Shown here one piece after another: positions 5,098 to 49,751 of a stretch of 49,751 bases of DNA (its first letter is position 1; each line of letters begins with the position of its first letter). The notes beneath the pieces are model-generated. The model was given only the letters and a program-made list of their open reading frames with translations, did no database searches and was not told the origin of the DNA. The translations under genes and the position numbers were made by a program. Source of the stretch: Clostridia bacterium (lineage in GTDB: Bacteria > Bacillota > Clostridia > Oscillospirales > CAG-272); NCBI GenBank assembly GCA_017504625.1, contig JAFVQU010000001.1, forward strand, positions 1 to 49,751, given 5' to 3'.

Positions 5098-6831
5098 ATG
5101 CTTAAAAGATTTATCAGCTATTACAAGCCGCACGTGAAGATGCTCACGCTTGACATGCTTGCGGCACTATTTATCTCGGTTATCGGTATGGTATATCCTA
5201 TCGTTACCAACAATATGCTCAACGATTATATTCCAAACAGAGAATATAAAACTATCGTCATCGCGGGTGTGATCGTTCTCGTTTTGTATATAATCAGAAT
5301 GCTGCTCCGCTACTTCGTGCAGTATTACGGACATATTATCGGTGTCAGAATGCAGTCCTCTATGAGAAAAGACCTTTTTAATCACTTGCAAAAGCTCCCG
5401 TTCGGTTTCTATGATAACAACGAAACCGGAAGAATCATGACACGAATCACCAGCGATCTTTTCGAGGTGTGCGAGCTTGCTCACCACGGCCCCGAAAATC
5501 TGCTTATAAGCTCGGTGATGATAGTCTTGTCGTTTACCTACCTTGTAACTATCGACTGGATACTCACTCTTATCATCTTTTCCTGCGTGCCGATACTCGT
5601 AGTCGTCAGCCTTCATTACAGAAAGGCGATGACGAAAGCGTTTGCCGACAGAAGAAAGAGCAACGCGACGATAAACGCGGCGGTTGAGAGCAGCGTGACG
5701 GGAATCCGCGTCACCAAGGCCTACACAAACTCGGTGCGAGAGGTTGAAAAGTTTGCCAAGGGCGACGAGGAGTTCGTCAATTCCTCAAAGCAGGCGTATA
5801 ACGCAATGGCAAAATTCCATTCCTCGACCTCGTTCATCGTTGACGTATTTAACGTAATTATTCTTATCGCGGGCGGACTTTTCCTTTATGCGGGAAGAAT
5901 AAATTTCGCGGAATATTCGACCTTTATCGTGTCCGTCAACCTCTTTATAAATCCCGTAACCACGCTTATCGGCTTTATGGAGCAGTTCCAGAACGGTGCC
6001 AGCGGATTCAAGAGATTTATTGAAATTATGGACGAGAAGCCCGAAGTTGATGCGCCCGATGCCAAGGTGCTTGAGGACGTTGAGGGCGTTATTGAATTCA
6101 AGAACGTTACTTATTCCTACGACGACTCCAAGGAAGTCCTCCACGGAGTTGACCTTCGCATTGAAAAGGGCAGAAAGCTTGCGCTCGTCGGCCCCTCGGG
6201 CGGCGGAAAAACTACGCTTTGCCACCTTTTGCCCAATTTCTATAAGCTTGACGAGGACGGCGGCTCAATACTTATCGACGGCAAGGATATCCGCACCCTT
6301 ACGCTTGAATCGGTAAGAAAAAATATCGGTATAGTTCAGCAGGACGTATTCCTTTTCGTTGGAACTATCCGCGAAAATATCCTTTACGGCCGTCCCGATG
6401 CGACTGATGAGGAAATATACGAGGCGGCTCGCCGCGCGAATATACACGATTATATTATGACGCTTGAAAAGGGCTACGATACCGAGATCGGTGAGCGCGG
6501 AGTAAAGCTTTCGGGCGGTCAGAAGCAGAGGCTCAGTATCGCGCGAGTATTCCTTAAAGACCCCGCAATACTTATTCTCGACGAGGCAACGAGCGCGCTT
6601 GACAACACGACCGAGGTGCTTATTCAGCAATCGCTTGACGAGCTTTGCCGCGGACGTACCACGCTTGTAGTTGCGCACAGACTTTCAACTATCCGTAACG
6701 CCGACGAGATCGCCGTCGTTATGAACGGCAAGGTCACCGAACGCGGCACACACGACGAGCTTATGGCTGCGGAGGGCACGTATAAGAGCCTTTATGCGCT
6801 TCAGTTCCGTGACAATGATATTTTTGAATGA
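5098..6831 (+). CDS. ABC exporter half-transporter (MsbA/MdlB type)
   Basis: An N-terminal six-helix membrane domain (about residues 1-300) is fused to an ATPase domain. The ATPase has Walker A GPSGGGKTT at about 365-373, signature LSGGQKQR at about 471, Walker B ILILDEATSALD and the H-loop VVAHRLST. At 577 residues it has the normal length of a homodimeric or heterodimeric exporter half. No partner gene lies beside it, so it probably works as a homodimer. I chose ATG 5098 because AAGG lies 10 bases upstream; the ATG at 5080 has no ribosome site. The substrate cannot be told from sequence. Confidence 0.95.
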   Translation: MLKRFISYYKPHVKMLTLDMLAALFISVIGMVYPIVTNNMLNDYIPNREYKTIVIAGVIVLVLYIIRMLLRYFVQYYGHIIGVRMQSSMRKDLFNHLQKLPFGFYDNNETGRIMTRITSDLFEVCELAHHGPENLLISSVMIVLSFTYLVTIDWILTLIIFSCVPILVVVSLHYRKAMTKAFADRRKSNATINAAVESSVTGIRVTKAYTNSVREVEKFAKGDEEFVNSSKQAYNAMAKFHSSTSFIVDVFNVIILIAGGLFLYAGRINFAEYSTFIVSVNLFINPVTTLIGFMEQFQNGASGFKRFIEIMDEKPEVDAPDAKVLEDVEGVIEFKNVTYSYDDSKEVLHGVDLRIEKGRKLALVGPSGGGKTTLCHLLPNFYKLDEDGGSILIDGKDIRTLTLESVRKNIGIVQQDVFLFVGTIRENILYGRPDATDEEIYEAARRANIHDYIMTLEKGYDTEIGERGVKLSGGQKQRLSIARVFLKDPAILILDEATSALDNTTEVLIQQSLDELCRGRTTLVVAHRLSTIRNADEIAVVMNGKVTERGTHDELMAAEGTYKSLYALQFRDNDIFE

Positions 6832-8667: not shown

Positions 8668-10161
8668 ATGGAGAACTTTACGAAAAACTTTGGATTTAAG
8701 CATAAAGCGGGTGTTCTTATGCCTGTAAGCAGTCTGCCAAACAAGTACGGAATCGGTAGCTTTGGCAAGGCGGCGCACGATTTTATTGATTTTCTGGACG
8801 CGACGGGACAGAAGTGCTGGCAGGTTTTGCCGCTTAATCCCACGTCTTACGGCGATAGCCCCTATCAGTCGCCCTCGAGCGTTGCGGGAAACCCCTATTT
8901 TATAGATCTGGACATACTTTGCGAGAAAAAGCTGCTTACAAAGGCAGAGCTTGCAGAGCAGAAGAATAATTCCAAGAAAATAGATTACGGATGGCTCTTC
9001 GGCGCAAGATATAAGGCGCTCCGTACCGCATTTTCGCGCTTTACACCCGATGCGGAGTATAAAAAATTCGTGAAGAAAAACGCGGCTTGGCTTGAAAAAT
9101 ACGCGCTCTTTATGGCGCTTAAGGTTCATTACAACTACTGTCAGTGGACTCTTTGGAGTGAGGAGCATCGCGATTATGCAAAGGCGATGGCAAATAAGAG
9201 CGAGTTTGAGGGTGAAATGGCGTTCTGGCGTTGGATCCAGTACGAATTTGCGACCGAGTGGCAGGCGATCGTAGATCACGCACACGAAAAGAAGATTATG
9301 ATAATCGGCGATATGCCTATTTACGTTGCGCACGACAGTATGGACGTCTGGGCTGCTCCCGAGCAGTTCTTGCTTGATGAAAATTACAATCCCACCGTGG
9401 TTGCGGGCTGTCCCCCCGACGGATTCTCTCCCGACGGTCAGCTCTGGGGCAACCCAATATACAATTGGGAGCTTATGGAGGAGCAGGGCTTTAGCTGGTG
9501 GATAGACCGCGTAGGCGCGGCATTCAAGCTTTACGATATCCTCCGTATAGACCATTTCCGCGGATTTGCGGGATATTTTACAATCAAATACGGCGCACCC
9601 AATGCAAGAGAGGGCGTCTGGAACAGCGCGCCCGGTATCGCGCTCTTCCGCACGATAGCAAAGACATATCCCAAGGCGAAGATCATTGCCGAGGATCTTG
9701 GATTTATCACCGAGGACGTGCGCGAGCTTCTTTCCGATTCGGGATTCCCGGGAATGAAGATGCTTCACTTCGCTTTCTACGACGACGATAGCGAGTATCT
9801 TCCCAGAACCTACGAAACAAAGAACTGCGTGGCTTACGTTTCCTCGCACGACTCCGACTGCACGTATACCTGGCAGAAGGATCTTTCGGGCGCGGCTAAA
9901 ATCAGATTTAACAGAGAGTGTCCGAGAAACAAGGAGCAGAGCAGAACCTGTGACCTTATTGAATTTGCCTTTAACAGTATAGCAAATCTTGCAGTCGTTC
10001 CTATGCAGGACTATCTTGAGCTTTCAAACGCCGAGGGAAGAATGAATACTCCTTCGACCGCAGAGGGCAACTGGGGCTGGAGAATAAATCCTAAGTACGA
10101 TACCGAAAAGCTCCGCGCCAAGATGATAGGACTTGCCAAGAGAACTAAGCGTTCAAAATAA
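8668..10161 (+). CDS. malQ: 4-alpha-glucanotransferase (GH77)
   Basis: This 497-residue cytoplasmic enzyme disproportionates imported maltodextrins, releasing glucose and longer chains. The GH77 features are visible: the N-terminal GSLPNKYGIGSFG-like segment, the nucleophile aspartate in RIDHFRGF, the general acid glutamate in AEDLGFI and the third aspartate in SSHDSD. The start follows GGAGGAC at about 8655. It is the first gene of a run with three secreted glycosidases, which places it as the intracellular step of starch use. Confidence 0.97.
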   Translation: MENFTKNFGFKHKAGVLMPVSSLPNKYGIGSFGKAAHDFIDFLDATGQKCWQVLPLNPTSYGDSPYQSPSSVAGNPYFIDLDILCEKKLLTKAELAEQKNNSKKIDYGWLFGARYKALRTAFSRFTPDAEYKKFVKKNAAWLEKYALFMALKVHYNYCQWTLWSEEHRDYAKAMANKSEFEGEMAFWRWIQYEFATEWQAIVDHAHEKKIMIIGDMPIYVAHDSMDVWAAPEQFLLDENYNPTVVAGCPPDGFSPDGQLWGNPIYNWELMEEQGFSWWIDRVGAAFKLYDILRIDHFRGFAGYFTIKYGAPNAREGVWNSAPGIALFRTIAKTYPKAKIIAEDLGFITEDVRELLSDSGFPGMKMLHFAFYDDDSEYLPRTYETKNCVAYVSSHDSDCTYTWQKDLSGAAKIRFNRECPRNKEQSRTCDLIEFAFNSIANLAVVPMQDYLELSNAEGRMNTPSTAEGNWGWRINPKYDTEKLRAKMIGLAKRTKRSK

Positions 10162-10204
10162 GATATACCGACCGAATACCAAAATCATTAAAGGGAGAAT
10201 AATT

Positions 10205-12883
10205 ATGAAAAGCTATTTTCGCGCTATATCTCTTTTGTTAGTATTTGTTTTTATCATCGCCGCTATGGCATCCTGCTCAAACGGCAGAGTTGAGGGTAGC
10301 ACTACCGATGCGACGAGTGCGCCGACTGAGGAAGCACCGACCGAGCAGCCGTCGGGAACTCCCGTTGACGAATATACGCTTCCGCTTGAGGACGGATATA
10401 ATCAGCTGACTCTTTACTGGAGTTACGGTGGCAGCTATGAAAACTGCGACGTATGGATCTGGTGGGGAGATAAGGCAGGACAGGGTTACCTGTTCCACGA
10501 ATGTGAGTACGGTGCAAAGATGGTCGTAAACGTGCCCGAGGGTGTTGAGGAGGTCGGATTTATAGTCCGACGCGATTGCTCAGAGCCCGGCGGAAGCTCG
10601 TGGGGAAGTGCTACAAAGGATTACGATCAGGACAGATTTGCAATAATTGAGGGACGTGAGACCGTTATCTATCTTAAAACGGGCGACGCTTCCCAATATA
10701 AGAGTCAAGACGGAGGAAAAACTCTTACCATGATAAAGAAATTTTCACTTGCGGGTATCGTTGACGAAAAGAAGATCGAGTACCGCGTAACACCCAAGGT
10801 AAATATCAAGAGCTTTGATATGGTCAAGGTCTACGACGGTGACCGTGAGATAGCAGTCAGGAGCATTTCCACGCTTAACAGAGATGCGACCGCAGGATAT
10901 ATCGAGGTCGACGAGGTACTTGATCTTTCGGGCAACTATCGCGTAGTTATCGAAGGATACGGCGAAAAGGCAGTAGTGCCTACGGGTATTTTTGACAGCG
11001 ATTATTTTGCTGAGAATTTCCACTATGACGGCGACGATCTCGGCGCGATAATTGACGGTGATAACACCACGTTTAAGGTTTGGGCGCCCACCGCGTCAAA
11101 GGTAGTGCTTAACCTCTTTACCGAGGGCAACGGCGTTGATGCTTACAAGACCGTTGAAATGGTAAAGGGTGATAAGGGCGTTTGGTCGCATACCGAGGCT
11201 TGCGGTCACGGAACCTATTATACTTATTCGGTAACGACTTCGGTAGGCACTCAGGAGGCGGTTGACCCCTATGCAAAGGCGGCGGGAGTTAACGGCAAGC
11301 GCGGAATGGTAGTCGATCTTTCGCTTACCGATCCCGAGGGCTGGGACGATGCAATCCTTACCGACAATATTGATCATTATTCCGATGCTATCATCTGGGA
11401 GGTACACGTCAGAGATTTCTCAAACAAGATAGCAGACTCGCAGTATAAGGGCAAATATCTCGCCTTTACCGAAAGAGGACTTGTAAACGAGCACGGTGAG
11501 CCTATCGGCGTTGATTATCTTGTAAATCTCGGTATAACTCACGTTCATCTTCTCCCCGTTTACGACTACGCATCGGTTGACGAAACTCACCCCGACGATC
11601 AGTTCAACTGGGGCTACGATCCCGCAAACTACAACGTTCCCGAGGGAAGCTACTCGACCGATCCCTATAACGGAGAGGTAAGAATCCGCGAATATAAGGA
11701 AATGGTAAAGGCGCTTCACGAGGCGGGTATCGGCGTGATCATGGATATGGTTTATAACCATACCTACGATGCTAACAGCTCGTTTAACAAGATAGTTCCT
11801 TACTATTATTACAGATATACAAACACGGGCGCAAATTCCTCGGCGAGCGGTTGCGGAAACGATACCGCGTCCGAGAGATATATGTTCGGTAAATTTATGG
11901 TGGATTCCACTTCCTACTGGGTAGAGGAATACAAGCTTGACGGACTTCGCTTTGACCTTATGGGACTTCACGATCTTGCAACGATGCAGGAGGTTGAAAG
12001 CGCGGTTCATACCGTAAATCCCAATGCTATCATCTACGGCGAGGGCTGGACTATGGGCGCAACTATCGACGGCAGCAAGCAGGCAAATCAGTCTAACATT
12101 GGTGAAATCGTGCCCACAGGCGACGCTATCGGAGCTATTGCGGTATTCAACGACGCTATCCGTGACGGACTTAAGGGAAGCGTGTTTGAGGCTACGGGTA
12201 AGGGCTTTATCAACGGCTCGCCCAAGGGCAACGTAATAAAGGTGCTCTTTGGAATAAAGGGCGGCGCGGCATCGGGAACGACCTGGAGAGTTACCGATTC
12301 TATGGTTATCAATTACATGAGCGCACACGATAATAACACGCTCTGGGATAAGCTCCTTCTTTCAAACCCCAACGACAGCGACGACACGAGAAACAAGATG
12401 AACAATCTCGGTGCGGCTATCATTATGATATCGAAGGGAACACCCTTCTGGCAGGCGGGCGAGGAAATGCTCCGCACCAAAGACGGCGATGAAAACAGCT
12501 ATAAGTCAAGCGACGCGATAAACAATATCGATTGGTCTGTTCTTAAAGAGGGCGAGCGTCAGTATGAAACTATGCTTTACTATAAGGGACTTATCGAAAT
12601 GAGAAAGGCTTATCCGATATTTACCGACGCTACTACCGAGGTAACGCACGAGGAGCTTGGAAGCGGAGTAATTCTCGTTACTATTAAGGATAGCAACGGC
12701 GGCGAGGCTCTTGTCGTTATCAATCCTCATTCTCAGGCTCTCCCCGTGACTCTTGAGGGCGAATGGAACCTTGTTGCGACCTCGACCGAGGCGGGCGCTG
12801 AGGTTATCGCACGTGATAGCGGAAGCATCACGGCGGACGCTATCGGTGTAAGAGTTTATATCAACGACGCTCTTGTAAAGTGA
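10205..12883 (+). CDS. pulA: Secreted lipoprotein pullulanase (GH13 type I)
   Basis: The protein has 892 residues. A signal peptide ends in the lipobox AMASC (Cys24), so it is probably anchored to the outside of the membrane. A pullulanase-associated CBM41-like domain lies at about 55-165, a CBM48-like domain at about 275-360 and the GH13 barrel from about 390. The pullulanase signature YNWGYDP (as FNWGYDP), DMVYNHT, GLRFDLMG, YGEGW and YMSAHDN are present. It should cleave alpha-1,6 branches of pullulan or starch. The ATG at 10205 has GGGAGA upstream and starts a clean signal peptide. It lies 43 bp after malQ with no terminator between. Confidence 0.95.
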   Translation: MKSYFRAISLLLVFVFIIAAMASCSNGRVEGSTTDATSAPTEEAPTEQPSGTPVDEYTLPLEDGYNQLTLYWSYGGSYENCDVWIWWGDKAGQGYLFHECEYGAKMVVNVPEGVEEVGFIVRRDCSEPGGSSWGSATKDYDQDRFAIIEGRETVIYLKTGDASQYKSQDGGKTLTMIKKFSLAGIVDEKKIEYRVTPKVNIKSFDMVKVYDGDREIAVRSISTLNRDATAGYIEVDEVLDLSGNYRVVIEGYGEKAVVPTGIFDSDYFAENFHYDGDDLGAIIDGDNTTFKVWAPTASKVVLNLFTEGNGVDAYKTVEMVKGDKGVWSHTEACGHGTYYTYSVTTSVGTQEAVDPYAKAAGVNGKRGMVVDLSLTDPEGWDDAILTDNIDHYSDAIIWEVHVRDFSNKIADSQYKGKYLAFTERGLVNEHGEPIGVDYLVNLGITHVHLLPVYDYASVDETHPDDQFNWGYDPANYNVPEGSYSTDPYNGEVRIREYKEMVKALHEAGIGVIMDMVYNHTYDANSSFNKIVPYYYYRYTNTGANSSASGCGNDTASERYMFGKFMVDSTSYWVEEYKLDGLRFDLMGLHDLATMQEVESAVHTVNPNAIIYGEGWTMGATIDGSKQANQSNIGEIVPTGDAIGAIAVFNDAIRDGLKGSVFEATGKGFINGSPKGNVIKVLFGIKGGAASGTTWRVTDSMVINYMSAHDNNTLWDKLLLSNPNDSDDTRNKMNNLGAAIIMISKGTPFWQAGEEMLRTKDGDENSYKSSDAINNIDWSVLKEGERQYETMLYYKGLIEMRKAYPIFTDATTEVTHEELGSGVILVTIKDSNGGEALVVINPHSQALPVTLEGEWNLVATSTEAGAEVIARDSGSITADAIGVRVYINDALVK

Positions 12884-42753: not shown

Positions 42754-43282
42754 ATATTCCGTAGGTTTTCGTTAAAGGATCCTTGAAAATCGCAATTTCA
42801 GGCGTTAAAAAAGTGAATACGACAAAAAGCAGAGCTATAACGCAAAGCACACCGATAGCCAGCTTTGGCGACCTGCACCGTGCTTTATTGCTTTCCGCGT
42901 TAAAGAGCCGAGTTTCATAGATATACGATGTCGCGGCGGAAATAAAGAAAATGGCAATGTTTATCCAATCGGGCGATTTCCCAAGCACGCCGTTGTAGGT
43001 GTAAAACAAAATTGGAATAAGCACAAGTCCGAGAATTATTCCGCGCAGCTTGACGCACCAGAAATTCTCGCGATCACGGAAGAAAAAGCTCTCTACGACG
43101 GCAAAAATAAGCATAGGCCAAAAGAGAAGCTTCATATGCTCCCACGTCGACTCATTTACGCCCGAAAAGGGCGCGATCCAAGCCGCCTCGCCAAGCCAGT
43201 CGTAAAGAAAATGTAATATTGTTCCTCCAAGTGATGTTACCGCAAAGCCCAAAAGCTGCCAAAGTCCGATAGATCTTTTCAT
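42752..43282 (-). CDS. DUF6512-type membrane protein
   Basis: This 176-residue protein has five or so hydrophobic segments and a conserved-looking NESTWEHMKLLFWP stretch near residues 43-56, as in small membrane proteins of the DUF6512 type in Clostridia. The function is unknown. GGAGG lies just upstream of the ATG. It is the last gene before the AT-rich, decayed region. Confidence 0.8.
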   Translation of the reverse strand: MKRSIGLWQLLGFAVTSLGGTILHFLYDWLGEAAWIAPFSGVNESTWEHMKLLFWPMLIFAVVESFFFRDRENFWCVKLRGIILGLVLIPILFYTYNGVLGKSPDWINIAIFFISAATSYIYETRLFNAESNKARCRSPKLAIGVLCVIALLFVVFTFLTPEIAIFKDPLTKTYGI

Positions 43283-43412
43283 AATTCCTCCACTTTGTCT
43301 GATAATATAGTGTATGGCACGAGTGGATCAGATATGCGTAAGAATTTATTGGCACGGTGGTATTGATCAAACTTGAACTCATGGTTTCGAGCATAATCAA
43401 GGCTCTACAAAA

Positions 43413-43835
43413 CCCTACCGCAAGATAATCGAATTAATAATAGCGCTAAAGAAAAATTAAAGCGGTGAGCTTATAGGAATGCTTTACTTACATGATTTTG
43501 GAGGAAAGAAACCGGTGAAACGTCCTACAGAGGAGGGTAATCAAACCGGAATAACGGTTGAGACTAAAATGGGACCTACGGAGAATATCAGGTAGTGCTT
43601 TATAATGAGGATGCGCAATGATTTATTTTGGATAATCTTGATGCAGCAGTAGCCACCGAAACGAAAAAAAGGAAGTCTTGTGAGGCGGCTATGACCGGTA
43701 CCGAAGAAACAGGTGATTAAGAAGCTAATGCGCAATCTGATTGGTCCGACTTTCCGGTAGGTGAACGAAAGATTTAATGAGTATTTGCGGTTTCTGGGAG
43801 AGAATTACCTGGATCAGATAAAATTCTCTATAAAA
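43413..43835 (+). pseudogene. Decayed unrecognised gene
   Basis: Protein-like sequence can be followed through three frames broken by stops. The segments are RKIIELIIALKKN, stop, GMLYLHDFGGKKPVKRP, then after a shift YGEYQVVLYNEDAQ, stop, FILDNLDAAVA, then SDWSDFPVGERK and, after another shift, RFNEYLRFLGENYLDQIKFS. I cannot assign a family. Accumulated stops and frameshifts point to a dead gene at the edge of the accessory region. Confidence 0.4.
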
Positions 43836-43840
43836 ATAAG

Positions 43841-43864
43841 AAGACCTCCGAAGAGGTCTTTTGA
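43841..43864 (+). terminator. Terminator after the decayed gene
   Basis: An eight-bp stem (aagacctc/gaggtctt) with a cgaa tetraloop is followed by T residues. Confidence 0.75.
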
Positions 43865-43954
43865 GCACATGCTATGCGATCGGCGGATTAGACGATTTGA
43901 GTTTTTTATTTGAACTTATAGTGTAAGTTTATAAGGAATATATGGACACCCGCG

Positions 43955-44012
43955 CTAGGCATAAGTGACAATTGAACTTGCGACCTCTACCACCCCAATG
44001 GTAAAATTTACC
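43955..44012 (-). other. Possible remnant of a tRNA 3' half
   Basis: On the minus strand the stretch ggtagaggtcgcaagttcaatt looks like the variable loop and T-arm of a tRNA, but the matching T-stem is missing and no acceptor stem forms. It could be the trace of an integration event in a tRNA gene. The call is weak. Confidence 0.2.
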
Positions 44013-44081
44013 ATTTTCTAGGCATTTCTGCTCCGTTTAGACCTTTCTAGTACACAAAAATTGTCAAAACGCGCTCTCTGG

Positions 44082-44134
44082 CACTCTTGTCTCCGTGTAC
44101 TCCGGATCTGTTTATGGTCAAAGATGTGGTCAAA
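44082..44134 (+). repeat. Left copy of the 53-bp direct repeat
   Basis: It runs from cactcttgtctccgtgtact to gatgtggtcaaa and matches 48841-48893 at 51 of 53 bases (differences at 44106 and 44111). Weaker similarity continues about 60 bp further upstream in both copies (tttctgct, ctctgg/ctcg). Confidence 0.9.
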
Positions 44135-44139
44135 AAATC

Positions 44140-44176
44140 AGCCCCTTGTATTAGCAAAATTGCGATACAAGGGGCT
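44140..44176. repeat. Inverted repeat inside the left flank
   Basis: Perfect twelve-bp arms (agccccttgtat/atacaaggggct) with a 13-base loop. On the minus strand it is followed by gatttttt, so it could be a terminator for minus-strand transcription. Confidence 0.6.
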
Positions 44177-44201
44177 AAATTCATTCAATCGAGCAAACCT
44201 A

Positions 44202-44236
44202 GAATCAGAGTGCGATAAACAAAGAAAAAACTCATC
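44202..44236 (+). repeat. Repeat family copy A (partial)
   Basis: The sequence agaatcagagtgcgataaac followed by aaagaaaa matches the 3' half of the TGATAYGCAGTAARCAAAGAAAA family found at 44329, 49197 and 49333. Confidence 0.55.
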
Positions 44237-44328
44237 TAATATTTAAAAACCAAGATTTAGAGTGCACACAATGACGCTGGTTGTGTTTGCCTTGTTGAGG
44301 AGAAACGAGTTTTATAGGAATCAAAAAA

Positions 44329-44351
44329 TGATATGCAGTAAACAAAGAAAA
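44329..44351 (+). repeat. Repeat family copy B
   Basis: A full 23-base copy, tgatatgcagtaaac followed by aaagaaaa, preceded by tcaaaaaa. It is identical to copy D at 49333. Confidence 0.8.
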
Positions 44352-44400
44352 AGGCGGCGGAGAAATCCACTGCTAGTTCGAAGGATATTTGCAAAAATAT

Positions 44401-44433
44401 ACATCTATTTGAGAAAAAATCTCAAATAGATGT
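44401..44433. promoter_or_regulatory. Candidate operator at the module promoter
   Basis: Perfect thirteen-bp arms (acatctatttgag/ctcaaatagatgt) are separated by seven bases. The right arm runs into the -35 box of the operon promoter. A DNA-binding product of the operon's own winged-helix genes could act here. Confidence 0.5.
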
Positions 44434-44460
44434 TGACAAATTGGAATTTTCGAGTATAAT
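44433..44460 (+). promoter_or_regulatory. Promoter of the RloAB-like operon
   Basis: TTGACA, a 16-bp spacer and TATAAT, about 34 bp before the first start codon. Confidence 0.8.
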
Positions 44461-44494
44461 ATATAGTGAAAGGTTATAAAAGGAGATATGCATT

Positions 44495-45766
44495 ATGTTA
44501 TTGCAATTTAATTTTAAGAATTATAAATCATTTAGAGATGATACAATTTTAGATTTAACAGCGACTAAAATTTCCGATTTCAATAGTCATGTGGTTTCAA
44601 TAGCAAATGAAAGGGTATTGCCTGTAGCAGCTATATTTGGAGCAAATGCGAGCGGAAAATCTAATGTACAAGAAGCATTTAGATATATGACAATGTATGT
44701 AATTGAATCTTTGGAATATGGTGATGAAGCAGATTCAAAGAAGAAAAAGACAAAGTTTTTCAAACCAACTCCGTTCTTGTTTGACAATGATAGCAAAAAT
44801 GCAGAGACAACATTTGAAGTTTACTTTATTGATTCGGAAGATAGCGGAGCGAAAACTTACAATTATGGTTTCTCTGTAAATAGCAGCGGTGTATGTGAAG
44901 AATGGTTAAATAGCAAGTCCAAATCTTCGAGAGGATCCTATAAAAAGATTTTCCATCGCCACGGAAATAATATTGACATGCCTGGAATTCCTGCTAAGAG
45001 TCAAGAAAATATCAAAATAGCTTTGGCGAAAGAAACATTGATTGTTTCCTTGGGGGCAAAGTTGAAGATTGCAAAGTTAAAGTTTATTAGGGATTGGTTT
45101 ATTAACAACGATTTTGCAGACTTTGGACGACCTATAGAGAACTTCTTCTTGTCTCAGTTGATTCCTAATGGATTTGCAGATGACAAAAAGGTTCAGCAAA
45201 ATGTTGTAGATTATTTTTCGACTTTCGATCCATCTATAATTGGATTTAATGTAGAAGTTCTTAAGTCTGACAATGATGACGAAGATGAACATCTTAAGAT
45301 TGATGCTATTCATAGATTGATAAATTCCAATCAGACAACATCAATTCCTTTGCAAAATGAGTCGGCTGGAACATTGAAGATGTTTGCACTGTATCCTATG
45401 CTTCAGGATGTTCTATCAACCGGTGGAGTGTTATTCGTCGACGAGTTAAACGCAAGATTGCATCCACTGTTGGTTAGAACGTTTGTTATTACGTTCCTTA
45501 ACCCCGAAATTAACACTAAGCATGCGCAGCTTATCTTCACATCTCATGACTCGTGGCAGCTCAACGGAAACATGTTGCGTAGAGATGAGATATGGTTTAC
45601 CGAAAAGGATTATGACGGAGTATCTACATTGTATTCGTTGGCAGATTTTGTAGATGAAGATGGTGTGAAAATTCGAAAGGATGAGAATTACGAAAAGAAT
45701 TATCTTTTAGGTAAATACGGTGCAATTCCTACCTTAAAGTATTTTGATATGTTTAAGGAGGAATAA
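44495..45766 (+). CDS. RloA/AbiLi-like AAA15 ATPase
   Basis: This 423-residue ABC/SMC-like ATPase has Walker A GANASGKS at 49-56. The C-terminal half carries the signature-like NESAGTLKMF, Walker B VLFVDELNARLHP (Asp316, Glu317) and the H-switch His351 in FTSHD. This is the AAA15 architecture of abortive-infection and RM-linked RloA proteins. It is paired with a RloB-like gene 3 bp downstream, as in AbiL systems, where the ATPase is thought to control a nuclease-like partner. AAAGGAGA sets the start. Phage defence is a family-based inference. Confidence 0.9.
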   Translation: MLLQFNFKNYKSFRDDTILDLTATKISDFNSHVVSIANERVLPVAAIFGANASGKSNVQEAFRYMTMYVIESLEYGDEADSKKKKTKFFKPTPFLFDNDSKNAETTFEVYFIDSEDSGAKTYNYGFSVNSSGVCEEWLNSKSKSSRGSYKKIFHRHGNNIDMPGIPAKSQENIKIALAKETLIVSLGAKLKIAKLKFIRDWFINNDFADFGRPIENFFLSQLIPNGFADDKKVQQNVVDYFSTFDPSIIGFNVEVLKSDNDDEDEHLKIDAIHRLINSNQTTSIPLQNESAGTLKMFALYPMLQDVLSTGGVLFVDELNARLHPLLVRTFVITFLNPEINTKHAQLIFTSHDSWQLNGNMLRRDEIWFTEKDYDGVSTLYSLADFVDEDGVKIRKDENYEKNYLLGKYGAIPTLKYFDMFKEE

Positions 45767-45769
45767 TTG

Positions 45770-46423
45770 ATGCCTCGCGTTGAAAGAAATGGAAAACGAA
45801 AAGCAAGAGATCAGATGGCAAAACGAAGAGTGCCTGAATTAGGGTATTACTTCATTGTGACTGATACAAAGGAAACTGAGCAAAATTATATGCTCGGCTT
45901 GAGGGATTCTATCCCGAAAGAATTACAAGGCAAGTTAGTAATCAAGGTTGTGAAAACCGCTACCAAAGATCTTGTGGATGAAGCGTTGAATTTAGCTTCT
46001 CTTTATCCACAATTTGGTGAAATTTGGATTGTGTTTGACAGAGACCAAGTCAAGAATTTCGATGAGATTATCCGTCAAGCACGTGGCAGAGGAATAAGTG
46101 TGGGCTGGACAAATCCTTGCATTGAAGCATGGTTTAATGCTTATTTCGGAGAGATGCCAAATTATCAGGACTCTGTTTCTTGTTGTAGCGGTTTTAGCAT
46201 AGCTTATGAACGAGTAACTCGTCAGAGATATGTTAAATCGGATCCGCTGATATACGAGAAACTTAACCGCTTCGGTAATGAGGATGAAGCTATTTCATTA
46301 GCTGAGCAAAAAATTGCCGAGCATAGGGCTAACTGCAAGGACAAGCCCTCTGAAATGTGTCCTTGTACCACAGTTCACTTGTTGGTGGGTGAAATAAAAT
46401 CAAAAATACGCCGCTCTGAATAG
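45770..46423 (+). CDS. rloB: RloB/AbiLii-like protein
   Basis: This 217-residue protein matches the RloB family, which has a Toprim-like nuclease fold. An N-terminal IVTDTKETEQNY segment, the acidic pair FDRDQ (Asp90, Asp92), TNPCIEAWF (Glu119) and a C-terminal VHLLVGEI are visible. The first motif reads TDTKETE where many RloB proteins have an E-G-x-x-T-E form, so active-site spacing may differ. The start is ATG 45770 behind AAGGAGG; a TTG three bases earlier is less likely. It is the probable effector partner of the ATPase encoded upstream. Confidence 0.88.
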   Translation: MPRVERNGKRKARDQMAKRRVPELGYYFIVTDTKETEQNYMLGLRDSIPKELQGKLVIKVVKTATKDLVDEALNLASLYPQFGEIWIVFDRDQVKNFDEIIRQARGRGISVGWTNPCIEAWFNAYFGEMPNYQDSVSCCSGFSIAYERVTRQRYVKSDPLIYEKLNRFGNEDEAISLAEQKIAEHRANCKDKPSEMCPCTTVHLLVGEIKSKIRRSE

Positions 46424-46438
46424 GGAGATAGATAAGTA

Positions 46439-46792
46439 ATGGATACCAGACGAACAGAAGAATTATTAGAAGCGATTTTGCAGGAACTTAGCTTGCTCAC
46501 TGTTGCAACTAAGGCGAATGCTTTACAAAGGTTCAATAAAGAGTTTTTGATTAGTGAGATGCGTAGGAAAGCATACGAGCTTTTTGACGGAACTAAAACT
46601 CTTAAAGAAATCAGCGAGCAAATAGGAGAAAAGCAGAATTCTGTCCAAATTTTCGCACAGCAGTTGGTTGCGAAGGATTTGCTCGTTGTTACAAAACAAG
46701 GAAATAACAAAATGTACGCAAAGTCAATATCAAAGATAGCTGTTTATTACGCAGCACAGGATCTGAAAAAGGAGGAGGTAAATAATGGATAA
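46439..46792 (+). CDS. Small winged-helix-like protein 1 of the module
   Basis: This 117-residue protein has an N-terminal amphipathic helix (EELLEAILQELSLL) and a helix-turn-helix-like core starting at Tyr46: YELFDGTKTLKEISEQIG. A second, recognition-like helix and a beta-wing follow. It is related to the next three products; its YELFDGTKTLKEI string is identical in protein 3. GGGAGA lies upstream. DNA binding is inferred from the fold pattern, not proven. Its last 8 bases overlap the next gene. Confidence 0.8.
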   Translation: MDTRRTEELLEAILQELSLLTVATKANALQRFNKEFLISEMRRKAYELFDGTKTLKEISEQIGEKQNSVQIFAQQLVAKDLLVVTKQGNNKMYAKSISKIAVYYAAQDLKKEEVNNG

Positions 46793-47111
46793 TCTTGAAA
46801 ATCTCACAAATATGTTCGCTGAATTTTTGACCATATATAAATTTGTGAACAAAAAGAAAATAGCGGACATGCTTAAGTCTGAGTTAGAGAATCAGCAAAA
46901 AGTAGATATATATCAACTTAGTGATGGTGAGCATTCAACGCGAGATATAGCTTCACAAGTTACGCCTAAATGCGGACATAATACTGTGGCAAGATATTGG
47001 AAGCAGTGGGCGTTGCAGGGATTGGTTGTACCAGCGGAGAGAAAAGGCAGATTCAAAGCAGCCTTTAACCTCGAAGAGTATGGAATAACAGAAGTGAAGG
47101 AGGAAGAATGA
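46785..47111 (+). CDS. Small winged-helix-like protein 2 of the module
   Basis: This 108-residue member of the tandem family has its core motif at Tyr43: YQLSDGEHSTRDIASQV, then HNTVARYWKQWALQGLV as probable recognition helix. It is the most divergent of the four and ends in an acidic tail. The start overlaps the preceding gene by 8 bases, with GGAGG upstream, and its stop overlaps the next start as ATGA. Confidence 0.78.
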   Translation: MDNLENLTNMFAEFLTIYKFVNKKKIADMLKSELENQQKVDIYQLSDGEHSTRDIASQVTPKCGHNTVARYWKQWALQGLVVPAERKGRFKAAFNLEEYGITEVKEEE

Positions 47112-47410
47112 TGGACGTTAATGAGCAGATCCTTGAAGAGTTGAAAGCAATTCGTCGATTACTTACGATTTTTTCTCAAGACAAGCTTGATGAGTTTAAT
47201 GAGAAAATTAAAAGAAAGTACTTAACTACTCCTCAGAGAGAACAAATGTATGAACTCTTTGACGGCACAAAGACATTAAAAGAAATTGCGACGTTGGTAG
47301 GAATTTCTTCGGATGGTGTTCGAAAATTTTGCGTTTCACTTGAACAGGCAGGCTTGGTAGAGATGATAGCTTTAAATGAAAAGCAGCGAAATCCCAAAAG
47401 AATTTTCTAA
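47108..47410 (+). CDS. Small winged-helix-like protein 3 of the module
   Basis: This protein has 100 residues, or 99 if the second ATG at 47111 is used, which is better spaced from AAGGAGG. An N-terminal helix (EQILEELKAIRRLLTIF) is followed by YELFDGTKTLKEIATLVGISSDGVRKFCVSLEQAGLVEM. It shares a 13-residue identical string with protein 1, which points to a fairly recent duplication. Confidence 0.8.
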   Translation: MMDVNEQILEELKAIRRLLTIFSQDKLDEFNEKIKRKYLTTPQREQMYELFDGTKTLKEIATLVGISSDGVRKFCVSLEQAGLVEMIALNEKQRNPKRIF

Positions 47411-47421
47411 CGGAGGCAAAT

Positions 47422-47769
47422 ATGAGCGAAACTAATGAATTATATACTTCTGTGGCATATATAAAAAACAAAGTCGATACGCTTGAAAAGATAGAGCTGC
47501 TTAGATTGCGCTCTGACAATGTTTTGAAACAGAGGTATTTAGATATTTTAGCTAATGCCAATTTCCGAGCTGTTTATAAGGCTGTTGATGGCGAGAAAAG
47601 TCAAAAAGAGATTGCTACGGAAATCGGCAAAAGCGAGGCAAGTATAAGCGGATATATAAAGTCGCTTGTGGAAGAAGGTTTGCTTGAACTTATAGGTGTT
47701 ACTTCTAAAGGAAGAATCTATAATCATACAATTGTAGAACAAGCATACCACTTAAAAAGGCAGTTATGA
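47422..47769 (+). CDS. Small winged-helix-like protein 4 of the module
   Basis: This 115-residue protein has its core motif at Tyr52: YKAVDGEKSQKEIATEIGKSEASISGYIKSLVEEGLLEL, the most MarR/ArsR-like helix-turn-helix of the four. An N-terminal helical region of about 45 residues precedes it. CGGAGG sets the start, and the stop overlaps the next start as ATGA, so the nuclease-like gene is translationally coupled to it. Confidence 0.8.
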   Translation: MSETNELYTSVAYIKNKVDTLEKIELLRLRSDNVLKQRYLDILANANFRAVYKAVDGEKSQKEIATEIGKSEASISGYIKSLVEEGLLELIGVTSKGRIYNHTIVEQAYHLKRQL

Positions 47770-48473
47770 GCACGGAAAACGAAAAGCGAATATTACGCAT
47801 AATACTTGACTATTGTCACATGAAGCGGACGGAATTATTCAGTCATGAATTCGCACTAATAGTATGCCCTTCGATAAACAAAGAGATTATGGATAATACT
47901 CTAACATTTTCTCGATTCAAAAGTATATGTAAAAAAAGAAACGATTTTTTTGTGGCAAACGAATTGAATGTTAATGACTTCTGCCTTCGCCTATATAAAC
48001 ATCTTAAGCGTGAACTTTCATATTTTGTATTCGACTCTTTTCTTGACTCTTTGAAGGAATATAAACGAAGATTGGAGAATGGAAATGCTCGAGGGTTTCC
48101 GGAAGGAACTTCTGAGGATACATTGAGAAGCGATTTGTCTACATACATTAGGCATGAGAATTTCTGTGAGCCTAGATGTAGTTTTGGGCAGTGTGATATC
48201 ATTGTTCCTCAGCAAAAATGTATTATAGAAACAAAATTGTGGAAGGGGATCGAATACTACAATTCAGGATTGCCTGAATTAGCAGCATATGTAAAAGCTC
48301 AGAAATATAGCCAAGGATATTATGTTATCTATGATTACAACGCAAAAGATAATGAGATGATCCAGCGTAACGGAGAATGCTATTCTCTGATTTACAACAA
48401 AGTAAAAATCGAAGTGATATTTATTCGCATGAAAAAGGTTCCGCCGTCTAAAATATACAAGAACAACAAGTAA
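47766..48473 (+). CDS. PD-(D/E)xK nuclease-like protein
   Basis: This 235-residue protein has a helical N-terminal half and a C-terminal domain with a PD-(D/E)xK-like signature: Asp144 in GQCDIIV and, ten residues on, Glu155-Thr-Lys157 in IIETKLWKG. The helix LPELAAYVKAQKYSQGY follows, as in restriction-endonuclease-like folds. It would act on DNA or RNA with a metal ion. As the last gene of the operon it may be a second effector beside RloB. I do not recognise a closer family. Confidence 0.75.
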   Translation: MSTENEKRILRIILDYCHMKRTELFSHEFALIVCPSINKEIMDNTLTFSRFKSICKKRNDFFVANELNVNDFCLRLYKHLKRELSYFVFDSFLDSLKEYKRRLENGNARGFPEGTSEDTLRSDLSTYIRHENFCEPRCSFGQCDIIVPQQKCIIETKLWKGIEYYNSGLPELAAYVKAQKYSQGYYVIYDYNAKDNEMIQRNGECYSLIYNKVKIEVIFIRMKKVPPSKIYKNNK

Positions 48474-48545
48474 GCATAGCGTGTCCGCATATTATCCAAA
48501 AATCTCTATTATCCTACAAAAAATAAAAAAGTCTCCTTTGCATTT

Positions 48546-48579
48546 TTGAACTTCAAGTACAAATAAGCTAGAAGTTCAA
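48546..48579. repeat. Inverted repeat downstream of the module operon
   Basis: Perfect nine-bp arms (ttgaacttc/gaagttcaa) with a 16-base loop, 70 bp after the nuclease-like gene. There is no T-run, so it is only a possible 3' end structure. The rest of 48480-48840 is AT-rich, with degenerate copies of the flanking repeat (tctagccctttt, ctttactccgg) and no supported gene. Confidence 0.4.
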
Positions 48580-48840
48580 ATGTTTTGCTCATGAATTTTG
48601 GGGATAATCAGGGCGAAAGATATGAAAACTGTGTTTTTTGAGAGCGAAAAGATCGTGGTATCTAGCCCTTTTTAGCACTAATAATTTTTTCTAGTCGTTT
48701 CTATTCCATTAAATCTCCTTTACTCCGGAAAAATGGGGTGTTTCGACTTTACCCCAACCGATTGATATATCTTTTTTTAGCCGTTTTTGCTTTTTCTAGC
48801 CCTTTCTGCTACGCAAAAACGGCTTTTTTATACTCTCGTA

Positions 48841-48893
48841 CACTCTTGTCTCCGTGTACTCCGGTTCTGATTATGGTCAAAGATGTGGTCAAA
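48841..48893 (+). repeat. Right copy of the 53-bp direct repeat
   Basis: It matches 44082-44134 at 51 of 53 bases in the same orientation, 4759 bp away. Confidence 0.9.
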
Positions 48894-49085
48894 TCCGAGA
48901 GCCGAATGATTGATATGTGGTCATGTTTTCAGGTGGTAGATGCGCCCGAAAATCGCTCCGCCGGCAGAGAAGAAATGCAAGAGAACGGAGAGTGAATATG
49001 GATAGCAAATATAAGAAACACAGCAACCGCCATATGTGGTCAACCTTAGATAAAGAGCTGATAAACATGTGGTCAGCAACTCAAG
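48883..49085 (+). repeat. Cluster of four ATGTGGTCA repeats
   Basis: ATGTGGTCA occurs at 48883-48891, 48915-48923, 49034-49042 and 49077-49085, all in one orientation, and once more at 44124-44132 in the left flank. A related ATGGTCA is at 48873. Such phased short repeats resemble arm-type recombinase or iteron sites. In one frame each also reads Met-Trp-Ser, so a decayed peptide repeat is the alternative. Confidence 0.5.
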
Positions 49086-49196
49086 TAGCAAAGAGCAGAG
49101 AACCGCTCCGTGTTCCTTTTTCTGCAGGTGTTGTATTGTAACTTAGAATCGCAGCTTTGTCAAGTAGGTTGCGAAATAAAATTAGCACTCAAAATT

Positions 49197-49219
49197 TGAT
49201 ACGCAGTAAGCAAAGAAAA
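49197..49219 (+). repeat. Repeat family copy C
   Basis: tgatacgcagtaagc followed by aaagaaaa differs from copies B and D at two positions. It is preceded by actcaaaattt, as copy D is by actcaaaaat. Confidence 0.75.
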
Positions 49220-49226
49220 ATCTCGT

Positions 49227-49292
49227 CGCGACCATATCCATCATGTAGGCGCAAAGCCATTGGTACACACGTTATGGATATGGTCGCGTTTT
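49227..49292. repeat. Long perfect inverted repeat between repeat copies C and D
   Basis: Fifteen-bp arms (cgcgaccatatccat/atggatatggtcgcg) enclose a 32-base loop that can fold further (tgta..taca, ggc..gcc). Four T residues follow. It may be a terminator or a structured RNA. Confidence 0.7.
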
Positions 49293-49332
49293 GCTTTCAG
49301 GATCGGAAACAAGTTCGTTAAAACTCAAAAAT

Positions 49333-49355
49333 TGATATGCAGTAAACAAAGAAAA
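49333..49355 (+). repeat. Repeat family copy D
   Basis: It is identical over 23 bases to copy B at 44329. A smaller hairpin (tgatata/tatatca, 49389-49410) follows it, parallel to the hairpin after copy C. Confidence 0.8.
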
Positions 49356-49480
49356 GGCGGTTACGGTATCAATCATATATAGGTGAGCTGATATATTGGT
49401 GCCTATATCAGTGACGTGAAATACAGATTTGCGGATTTTGAAGAAATTAAACGTTCATTGAAGAAATTATCGTAAAATGC

Positions 49481-49509
49481 TTGCAATTTGTCGAAAAAAG
49501 TGATACAAT
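49481..49509 (+). promoter_or_regulatory. Promoter for the XRE regulator
   Basis: TTGCAA, 17 bp, TACAAT, about 40 bp before the start codon. Confidence 0.65.
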
Positions 49510-49548
49510 GGTAAATGTATAAAAATACTTATTTTTATGAGGTGGAAA

Positions 49549-49751
49549 ATGGCTGCAAGCTATAAGAAACTATTCAAAATGTTGATCGACCGCGAGATGA
49601 AAAGCAAAGACCTCGCCGCAAAAGCAGGTATCAGCCCAGCAACGCTCGCTAAGATGAAAAAAGACGGCGCAACCGTATCGAGTGATGTCCTCGTAAAGAT
49701 TTGCACGGCGCTTGACTGCACGGTAGATGATATATTGGAAATTGTTCCTGA
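49549..49751 (+). CDS. XRE-family (HTH_26-type) regulator, cut by the window end
   Basis: Sixty-seven codons are visible and no stop is reached. The Cro/CI helix-turn-helix reads KDLAAKAGISPATLAKMKKD, followed by CTALDCTVDDILEI, as in the small YozG-like regulators. GAGGTGG precedes the ATG. The codon use (gcgcttgac, gacctcgcc) resembles the core genes more than the module, so it may mark the right edge of the accessory region or the start of another element. Confidence 0.85.
   Translation, partial: MAASYKKLFKMLIDREMKSKDLAAKAGISPATLAKMKKDGATVSSDVLVKICTALDCTVDDILEIVP

Follow-up and report, generated by a model that had tools for sequence, protein, structure and literature searches.

Layout of the operon

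We analysed a stretch of 49,751 nucleotides, here called the window, from contig JAFVQU010000001.1 of a Clostridia bacterium of the gut (assembly GCA_017504625.1). Seven open reading frames (ORFs) at 44495–48473 on the + strand encode an AbiLi-type ATPase, RloB, four small proteins (w1 to w4) and a nuclease-like protein. The original prediction described seven tightly packed genes served by one promoter, the first two being an AbiL-type abortive-infection pair. At the sequence level this was borne out: the seven ORFs are in place on the + strand, PADLOC and Pfam matches identify the AbiL pair, and one perfect predicted promoter lies upstream. As judged from sequence comparison, the conserved unit of the operon is AbiLi–RloB–w1–w2–w3 and the variable unit is the pair formed by w4 and the putative effector behind it. 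The features are as follows.

44401..44433, no strand: perfect 14-bp dyad with 5-base loop, core TGAGA-N5-TCTCA, candidate operator
44433..44460, +: predicted sigma-70-type promoter TTGACA-16-TATAAT, 12 of 12 positions matched
44495..45766, +: AbiLi, RloA-like AAA ATPase, 423 residues; PADLOC AbiLi E 7.3e-89, Pfam AAA_21 E 1.9e-29
45770..46423, +: RloB (AbiLii), 217 residues from ATG; Pfam RloB E 8.2e-30
46439..46792, +: w1, 117 residues, winged helix-turn-helix (wHTH)-like, conserved part; orthologues in three loci, paralogue of w3
46785..47111, +: w2, 108 residues, divergent and weakly wHTH-like, conserved part; orthologues in three loci
47111..47410, +: w3, 99 residues, wHTH-like, conserved part; orthologues in three loci
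47422..47769, +: w4, 115 residues, wHTH, first gene of the replaced block; Pfam HTH_24 above cut-off
47766..48473, +: PD-(D/E)xK-like nuclease (predicted), 235 residues, second gene of the replaced block; D144/E155/K157

The spacings between consecutive genes are +3, +15, -8, -1, +11 and -4 bases, the last being the overlap of the start of the nuclease-like gene with the end of w4. Alternative starts are possible for RloB (TTG at 45767) and for w3 (ATG at 47108). An RNA-based system was considered and rejected, as Rfam gave no match at gathering score within 43280–49751.

The AbiLi–RloB core

The first protein matches the PADLOC AbiLi model; it also matches AriA of the PARIS system, far more poorly (E 3e-26 against 7e-89). 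Its P-loop, GANASGKS, is invariant in all six aligned sequences. In RloB the residues E35/E37, D90-x-D92 and E119, which we take to be the acidic residues of a Toprim-type site, are likewise invariant in six of six. The second protein matches RloB/AbiLii only (PADLOC AbiLii E 8.4e-21, in addition to Pfam RloB), so the AriB partner of PARIS is not present. RloB follows AbiLi directly after a 3-base gap, which is the partner arrangement of AbiL, though with seven closely spaced genes this is not a two-gene operon. By family models, the AbiLi–RloB part is AbiL; we accordingly file the core as AbiL and, on the same sequence grounds, the complete seven-gene operon as an AbiL variant. Elsewhere in the class RloB appears to be split over two ORFs, in L024/L029 (G379) and in L051 (G342); these are perhaps decayed AbiL copies or assembly errors.

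Recurrence of the five-gene core

RloB was found in 24 of the 391 genomes of the class. Inspection of its flanks (up to 1.5 kb, less at contig ends) located small genes resembling w1–w3 after RloB in three of the 24, namely the genome of the window, G451 and G304. A w2 profile scan of 84,980 genomes, made with two short peptide patterns that miss distant relatives, gave three loci (L053, L054 and L055). L054 and L055 are the same contigs as G451 and G304, with identical lengths and positions, and L053 comes from a water-buffalo colon metagenome-assembled genome; there are therefore four distinct loci with AbiLi–RloB–w1–w2–w3 (the array loci). The loci come from draft metagenome assemblies.

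The five genes correspond one-to-one between the window and the three further Clostridia genomes. Identity to the window copies is 84% for AbiLi, 74–75% for RloB, 52–61% for w1, 69–74% for w2 and 71–77% for w3, which puts w2 and w3 at a level of conservation similar to that of RloB, and w1 at a lower one. The original prediction would have been refuted had the small genes and the nuclease been absent beside RloAB in every other genome. Half of this was observed: the small genes do recur with RloAB in three other genomes, and the nuclease was found in no other array. Counted by family, w2 is present in one of 246 genomes of the window's own family, one of five in that of G451, one of 70 in that of G304 and one of 150 in that of L053, each being a known locus, and in none of the five same-genus genomes listed. 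The element is therefore rare and patchy. The w3 profile matched in eight of the 391 class genomes. Three of these are array loci (the window's genome, G304 and G451); the other five are weak matches (E 1.5e-4 to 9.4e-4) in different helix-turn-helix (HTH) proteins, which from their sequences and neighbours we take to be MarR-, YlxM- and DeoR-like.

Exchange of the distal pair

In the three other loci (L033, L034 and L053) w3 is followed by w4′, a wHTH-like protein of 137 residues, and then by a 219-residue protein. The latter has four hydrophobic segments and no family match of note, and is here called the membrane-type protein. Among these loci identity to the L053 copies is 82–84% for w4′ and 68–69% for the 219-residue protein. 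Identity of w4′ to w4 of the window is 25–26% (two loci). No confident alignment was obtained between w4 and w4′ (hhalign probability 0.2%), between the last protein of the window and the 219-residue protein (0.3%) or between w3 and w4′ (0.9%). The boundary is also visible in the DNA. Compared in 150-column intervals with L053 and L033, the window is 53–81% identical from the promoter through 47380, 49–50% across the w3 stop and 7–47% beyond 47415; the first interval, which is mostly upstream flank, gives 47–51%. A 4-base overlap between the fourth small gene and the effector gene is found in both versions. These comparisons suggest that the w4–effector pair has been exchanged as a unit behind a fixed AbiLi–RloB–w1–w2–w3 core.

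A profile of the membrane-type protein matched in 12 of the 391 class genomes. Two matches are strong and both are array loci. The remaining ten are weak (E 0.001–0.008), five of them contain internal stops, and one lies in G307, the genome of the array-free relative L035 discussed below. Plasmids gave no match to the profiles of w2, w3 or the membrane-type protein, and viral contigs none to these three or to that of w4′. Profiles of AbiLi and RloB found two AbiL loci in viral contigs, both without the module.

The small winged-helix-like proteins

When their sequences are read, w1, w2, w3 and w4 all contain Y-[EQK]-[LA]-x-D-G-[TE]-x-[ST]-x-[KR]-[ED]-I, the core claimed as common to the four small proteins. 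w1, w3 and w4 are clearly interrelated (phmmer E about 1e-12 to 1e-8), with w1 a paralogue of w3; w2 is weakly related to the others (E about 1e-4 to 8e-4) and weakly resembles w3. Sequence matches back the predicted winged-helix fold best for w4, the sole small protein above a Pfam HTH cut-off (HTH_24, 25.3 bits against 21.9); w1 and w3 have sub-threshold Pfam HTH matches and w2 a single one at E 0.1. A match of w3 to PDB entry 8vd6 (E 2e-8) was set aside, because the score is summed over repeats of which none is significant individually and because the only paper naming this entry is, by the portion available, concerned with protein design (PMC12339374). The original prediction pictured the four proteins as sensors diversified by duplication. 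This is not supported for w1–w3, which correspond one-to-one in four loci and behave as fixed parts.

The last gene

The last protein carries D144, E155 and K157, as was predicted, and these fit a D-x(n)-(D/E)xK motif. A strict PD-(D/E)xK motif arose in 38 of 10,000 shuffles of this protein and a looser one in 2,198 of 10,000, thus the motif alone is modest evidence. We found no nuclease family match above cut-off in Pfam, PADLOC, NCBIfam or PHROGs, and the best PDB sequence match, a phage exonuclease, is not significant (E 0.83). A search of the whole genomes matched residues 144–195 to the tail of a 518-residue AAA protein in L052 (6849–8405) at E 7.6e-4, and in a two-sequence test residues 149–194 matched this tail at E 2e-7. 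The tail overlaps a sub-threshold PDDEXK_3 match and has a D-x(12)-ExK motif of its own. In the 295 genomes of the order the search returned the protein itself plus this one weak tail match. No relatives were found in plasmids, phages, the 84,980 genomes or viral contigs, where close relatives only are detectable; this absence is weak evidence because the contig scans use short peptide patterns. Going by the motif, we predict that the last protein is a PD-(D/E)xK-like nuclease.

The juxtaposition of wHTH-like proteins with a PD-(D/E)xK-like nuclease would suit a system in which the nuclease is guided by the small proteins through their recognition of phage DNA or of modified bases. Winged-helix–endonuclease fusions are described as acting in this way (PMC11037411). 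Three of the four loci, however, have a membrane-type partner, for which DNA targeting makes little sense, and w1–w3 are conserved whichever effector is present. We therefore consider such guiding improbable.

The module as an optional accessory

L035 (in G307) has AbiLi and RloB that are 83% and 72% identical to those of the window. In the 182 bases left on the contig after its RloB there is no ORF of 60 residues, and w2 was found nowhere in the assembly. A hairpin-like stretch was seen by eye after RloB in this locus. Trees were built from part of the AbiL loci, for AbiLi (17 rows) and for AbiLi plus RloB (11 rows). The window, L033, L034, L053 and L035 form one supported clade (100/100), and with other AbiL as outgroup L035 joins L053, L033 and L034, leaving the window outside (100/98 and 97/96). 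Presence of the array requires two changes on these trees; a single change is allowed in 0% and 6% of 200 bootstrap trees. The simplest account is one gain plus one loss of the module, and two gains are possible. As L035 has no module yet sits inside the module-bearing clade, the module is an accessory. When 35 AbiL loci (the window not among them) were searched at E 0.001 with the module proteins, that is w1–w4, w4′, the 219-residue protein and the nuclease, matches were found in L033, L034 and L053 only; in this sample L104 and L106 represent the same contig, and a number of the loci are short.

These results bear on whether the operon is one system or two. A complete AbiL pair might simply be co-transcribed, as island cargo, with an independent toxin–antitoxin-like unit of w4 and a toxin accompanied by three regulators. 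AbiL has been described as a two-gene unit, 32 of the 35 AbiL loci have no module protein, L035 lacks the module, and the order and overlap of w4 and the effector gene are toxin–antitoxin-like. Against two systems, w2 and close relatives of w3 were found only behind this AbiL clade (the searches being samples), and the w genes keep a fixed order and are tightly packed, where an independent unit should also occur alone. We regard the two-system account as rather unlikely.

Promoter and shared dyad

Promoter-like matches overall are not enriched relative to shuffled sequence (17 against a shuffle mean of 16.9), therefore it is the 12-of-12 match of the predicted promoter that counts. The right end of the dyad meets the -35 box. 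We picked out the core TGAGA-N5-TCTCA by eye in the first 20 promoters. Among the 24 AbiL upstream regions of the class, 17 match it at 9 or 10 of its 10 positions; among 253 regions upstream of other ORFs, taken from 20 of these loci, none matches at 9 or more. Most of the AbiL loci had served to choose the core, so the figure of 17 of 24 does not test it independently. Several observations speak against a generally shared dyad: seven of the 24 class loci score below 9, the viral locus L106 scores 7, and none of 11 AbiL loci from plasmids and phages reaches 9 (eight have a named host from outside the class, one comes from a Clostridia plasmid and two from phages; L087 offers only 53 bases). 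At 5920–6000 the L106 promoter has, by eye, a dyad with similar outer arms and another core.

The outer arms give a feature that is independent of the choice of core. Counted over 16 loci, the nine positions beyond the core are paired in 98 of 144 cases; reshuffling the right arms among loci gives a mean of 65.1 (standard deviation 6.5), and none of 2000 reshufflings reached 98. When the five-locus clade is represented by a single member (12 loci), 64 of 108 pair against a mean of 46.8, and one of 2000 reshufflings reached 64. L041 was left out of this count because its site is too near the start codon for the interval used. The outer arms thus compensate one another.

Besides the window, the dyad lies near the AbiL -35 box in L020, L033–L037, L039, L041–L044, L046–L048, L051 and L053. 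Thirteen of these loci (L020, L035–L037, L039, L041–L044, L046–L048 and L051) have the core and no w gene. This makes the AbiLi–RloB core a likelier reader of the dyad than the w proteins, and we rejected the w genes as the cause of the dyad on the same grounds. HTH-like sequences beside a conserved promoter dyad would otherwise fit the idea that the winged-helix proteins are plain transcriptional regulators of the operon. Given that the dyad goes with AbiLi–RloB, and that four different co-transcribed regulators would be unusual, we think this doubtful.

Genomic setting

The G+C content of the operon is 36.4%, that of the contig's first 43 kb 47.6%. A direct repeat flanks the operon.

44074..44134, no strand: 61-bp direct repeat, left copy, 92% identical to the right copy
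48833..48893, no strand: 61-bp direct repeat, right copy

Contig C6 of this genome has a third, partial copy close to its end. The repeats are possible old attachment or insertion sites. Nearby is also a 38-bp repeat family (44315–44352, 49183–49220 and 49319–49356, 84–87% identical to the first copy), and the intergenic stretch after the operon contains a 20-bp inverted repeat with a 22-base spacer (49227–49288). In L053 a class II aminoacyl-tRNA-synthetase gene precedes the membrane-type operon, and genes for DarT and a DarT1-associated NADAR protein follow it directly (9836–11158). DarT–NADAR is a known defence pair. A tRNA-Leu gene lies beside the operon in L034; the window, L033, L035 and L053 yielded no tRNA.

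The patchy spread, the low G+C content and the 61-bp flanking repeats could also be explained if the operon had no part in defence and were mobile-element cargo that secures its own upkeep by addiction. AbiL is a known phage-abortive system, however, and DarT–NADAR adjoins the operon in L053. This explanation appears very improbable.

Proposed mechanism

We propose that the operon is an abortive-infection operon of AbiL type that was acquired horizontally and carries a plug-in effector module as an accessory, a reading to which we would give about an even chance. AbiLi, the ATPase, would sense infection and control RloB as a Toprim-like toxic effector, in the way that AriA controls AriB in PARIS. 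The products of w1, w2 and w3 may form a fixed winged-helix relay or scaffold, with w4 an adaptor or neutraliser dedicated to the effector whose gene follows directly. Once AbiLi is triggered, the relay would release or position this second effector, such that two effectors act: RloB and, in the window, the predicted PD-(D/E)xK nuclease or, in the relatives, the membrane-type protein. The promoter dyad could let AbiLi or RloB keep the operon at a low level. The sequences themselves show the gene content, the conserved five-gene core, the replacement of w4 and effector as a block, the 4-base overlap, the optional module and the promoter dyad. We infer a role in defence, the formation of complexes, the adaptor function of w4, the activity of the nuclease, the action on membranes, the binder of the dyad, triggering and killing. 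The main support for the pairing of w4 with the effector is that w4 sits just before the effector gene, overlaps it and is exchanged together with it. The main support for a link between the module and AbiL is that the conservation of w2 and w3 is similar to that of RloB and that w1–w3 were seen only behind this AbiL clade.

A number of points weigh against the proposal. The loci number four, and three of these resemble each other. A single locus carries the nuclease version, whose PD-(D/E)xK fold is a prediction from a sequence motif. Homology of w4 and w4′ cannot be shown by the alignments above, and the idea of the same role in a different version therefore rests on position, overlap and weak HTH matches. 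Experimental work on AbiL, as far as the consulted portion of PMC3985639 goes, is mixed. AbiLii of Fusobacterium nucleatum is toxic in E. coli; AbiLi of F. nucleatum failed to neutralise AbiLii in E. coli, and the L. lactis versions of both proteins had no inhibitory effect on E. coli growth. The PARIS analogy is weak for AbiL because of this non-neutralising AbiLi and these non-inhibitory L. lactis proteins.

A broader version of the proposal is tentative. AbiL could be a general trigger platform in which w1–w3 serve as relay and effectors are exchangeable together with cognate w4 adaptors, and in which AbiLi–RloB reads the dyad and so couples sensing to expression.

Comparison with known systems

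The operon is most like AbiL/RloAB in its ATPase–RloB pair, gene order and family matches. It differs in having five more co-directed genes with a replaceable effector block, while AbiL is presented, in the extract of PMC3985639 used here, as a putative bicistronic operon. PARIS likewise has an AAA ATPase followed by a Toprim-type partner, and AbiLi here matches AriA. According to the section consulted, a hexamer of AriA keeps AriB inactive until a phage trigger protein releases AriB, and PARIS is made up of two proteins (PMC12409363); the partner in our operon is RloB, not AriB.

The excerpt of PMC10440598 at hand describes RloB as a relative of OLD-type Toprim domains and connects it, as node D44, to the AAA-ATPase hub D29 of the NetFlax network. 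We found no mention of RloB in a review of OLD nucleases (PMC10568477). Partner exchange around an AAA ATPase is a likeness to D29, but there the direct partner is swapped in two-gene units, whereas here the distal pair is swapped and AbiLi–RloB–w1–w3 stay. Finally, the AbiE type IV toxin–antitoxin system, in the same extract as above, resembles the operon in combining a wHTH protein with a toxin and in having inverted repeats at its promoter (PMC3985639).

No protein of this operon gave an AbiE-type family match. Effector exchange behind a fixed sensor is known in CBASS and Thoeris. For AbiL, our search of open-licence PubMed Central literature turned up no account of a relay joined to the pair together with a second effector that can be exchanged. 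If the proposal is true, the matched natural operons, carrying the nuclease, the membrane-type protein or neither, would be a means to ask what triggers AbiLi–RloB and what its output is. The shared promoter dyad offers a direct test of AbiL self-regulation.

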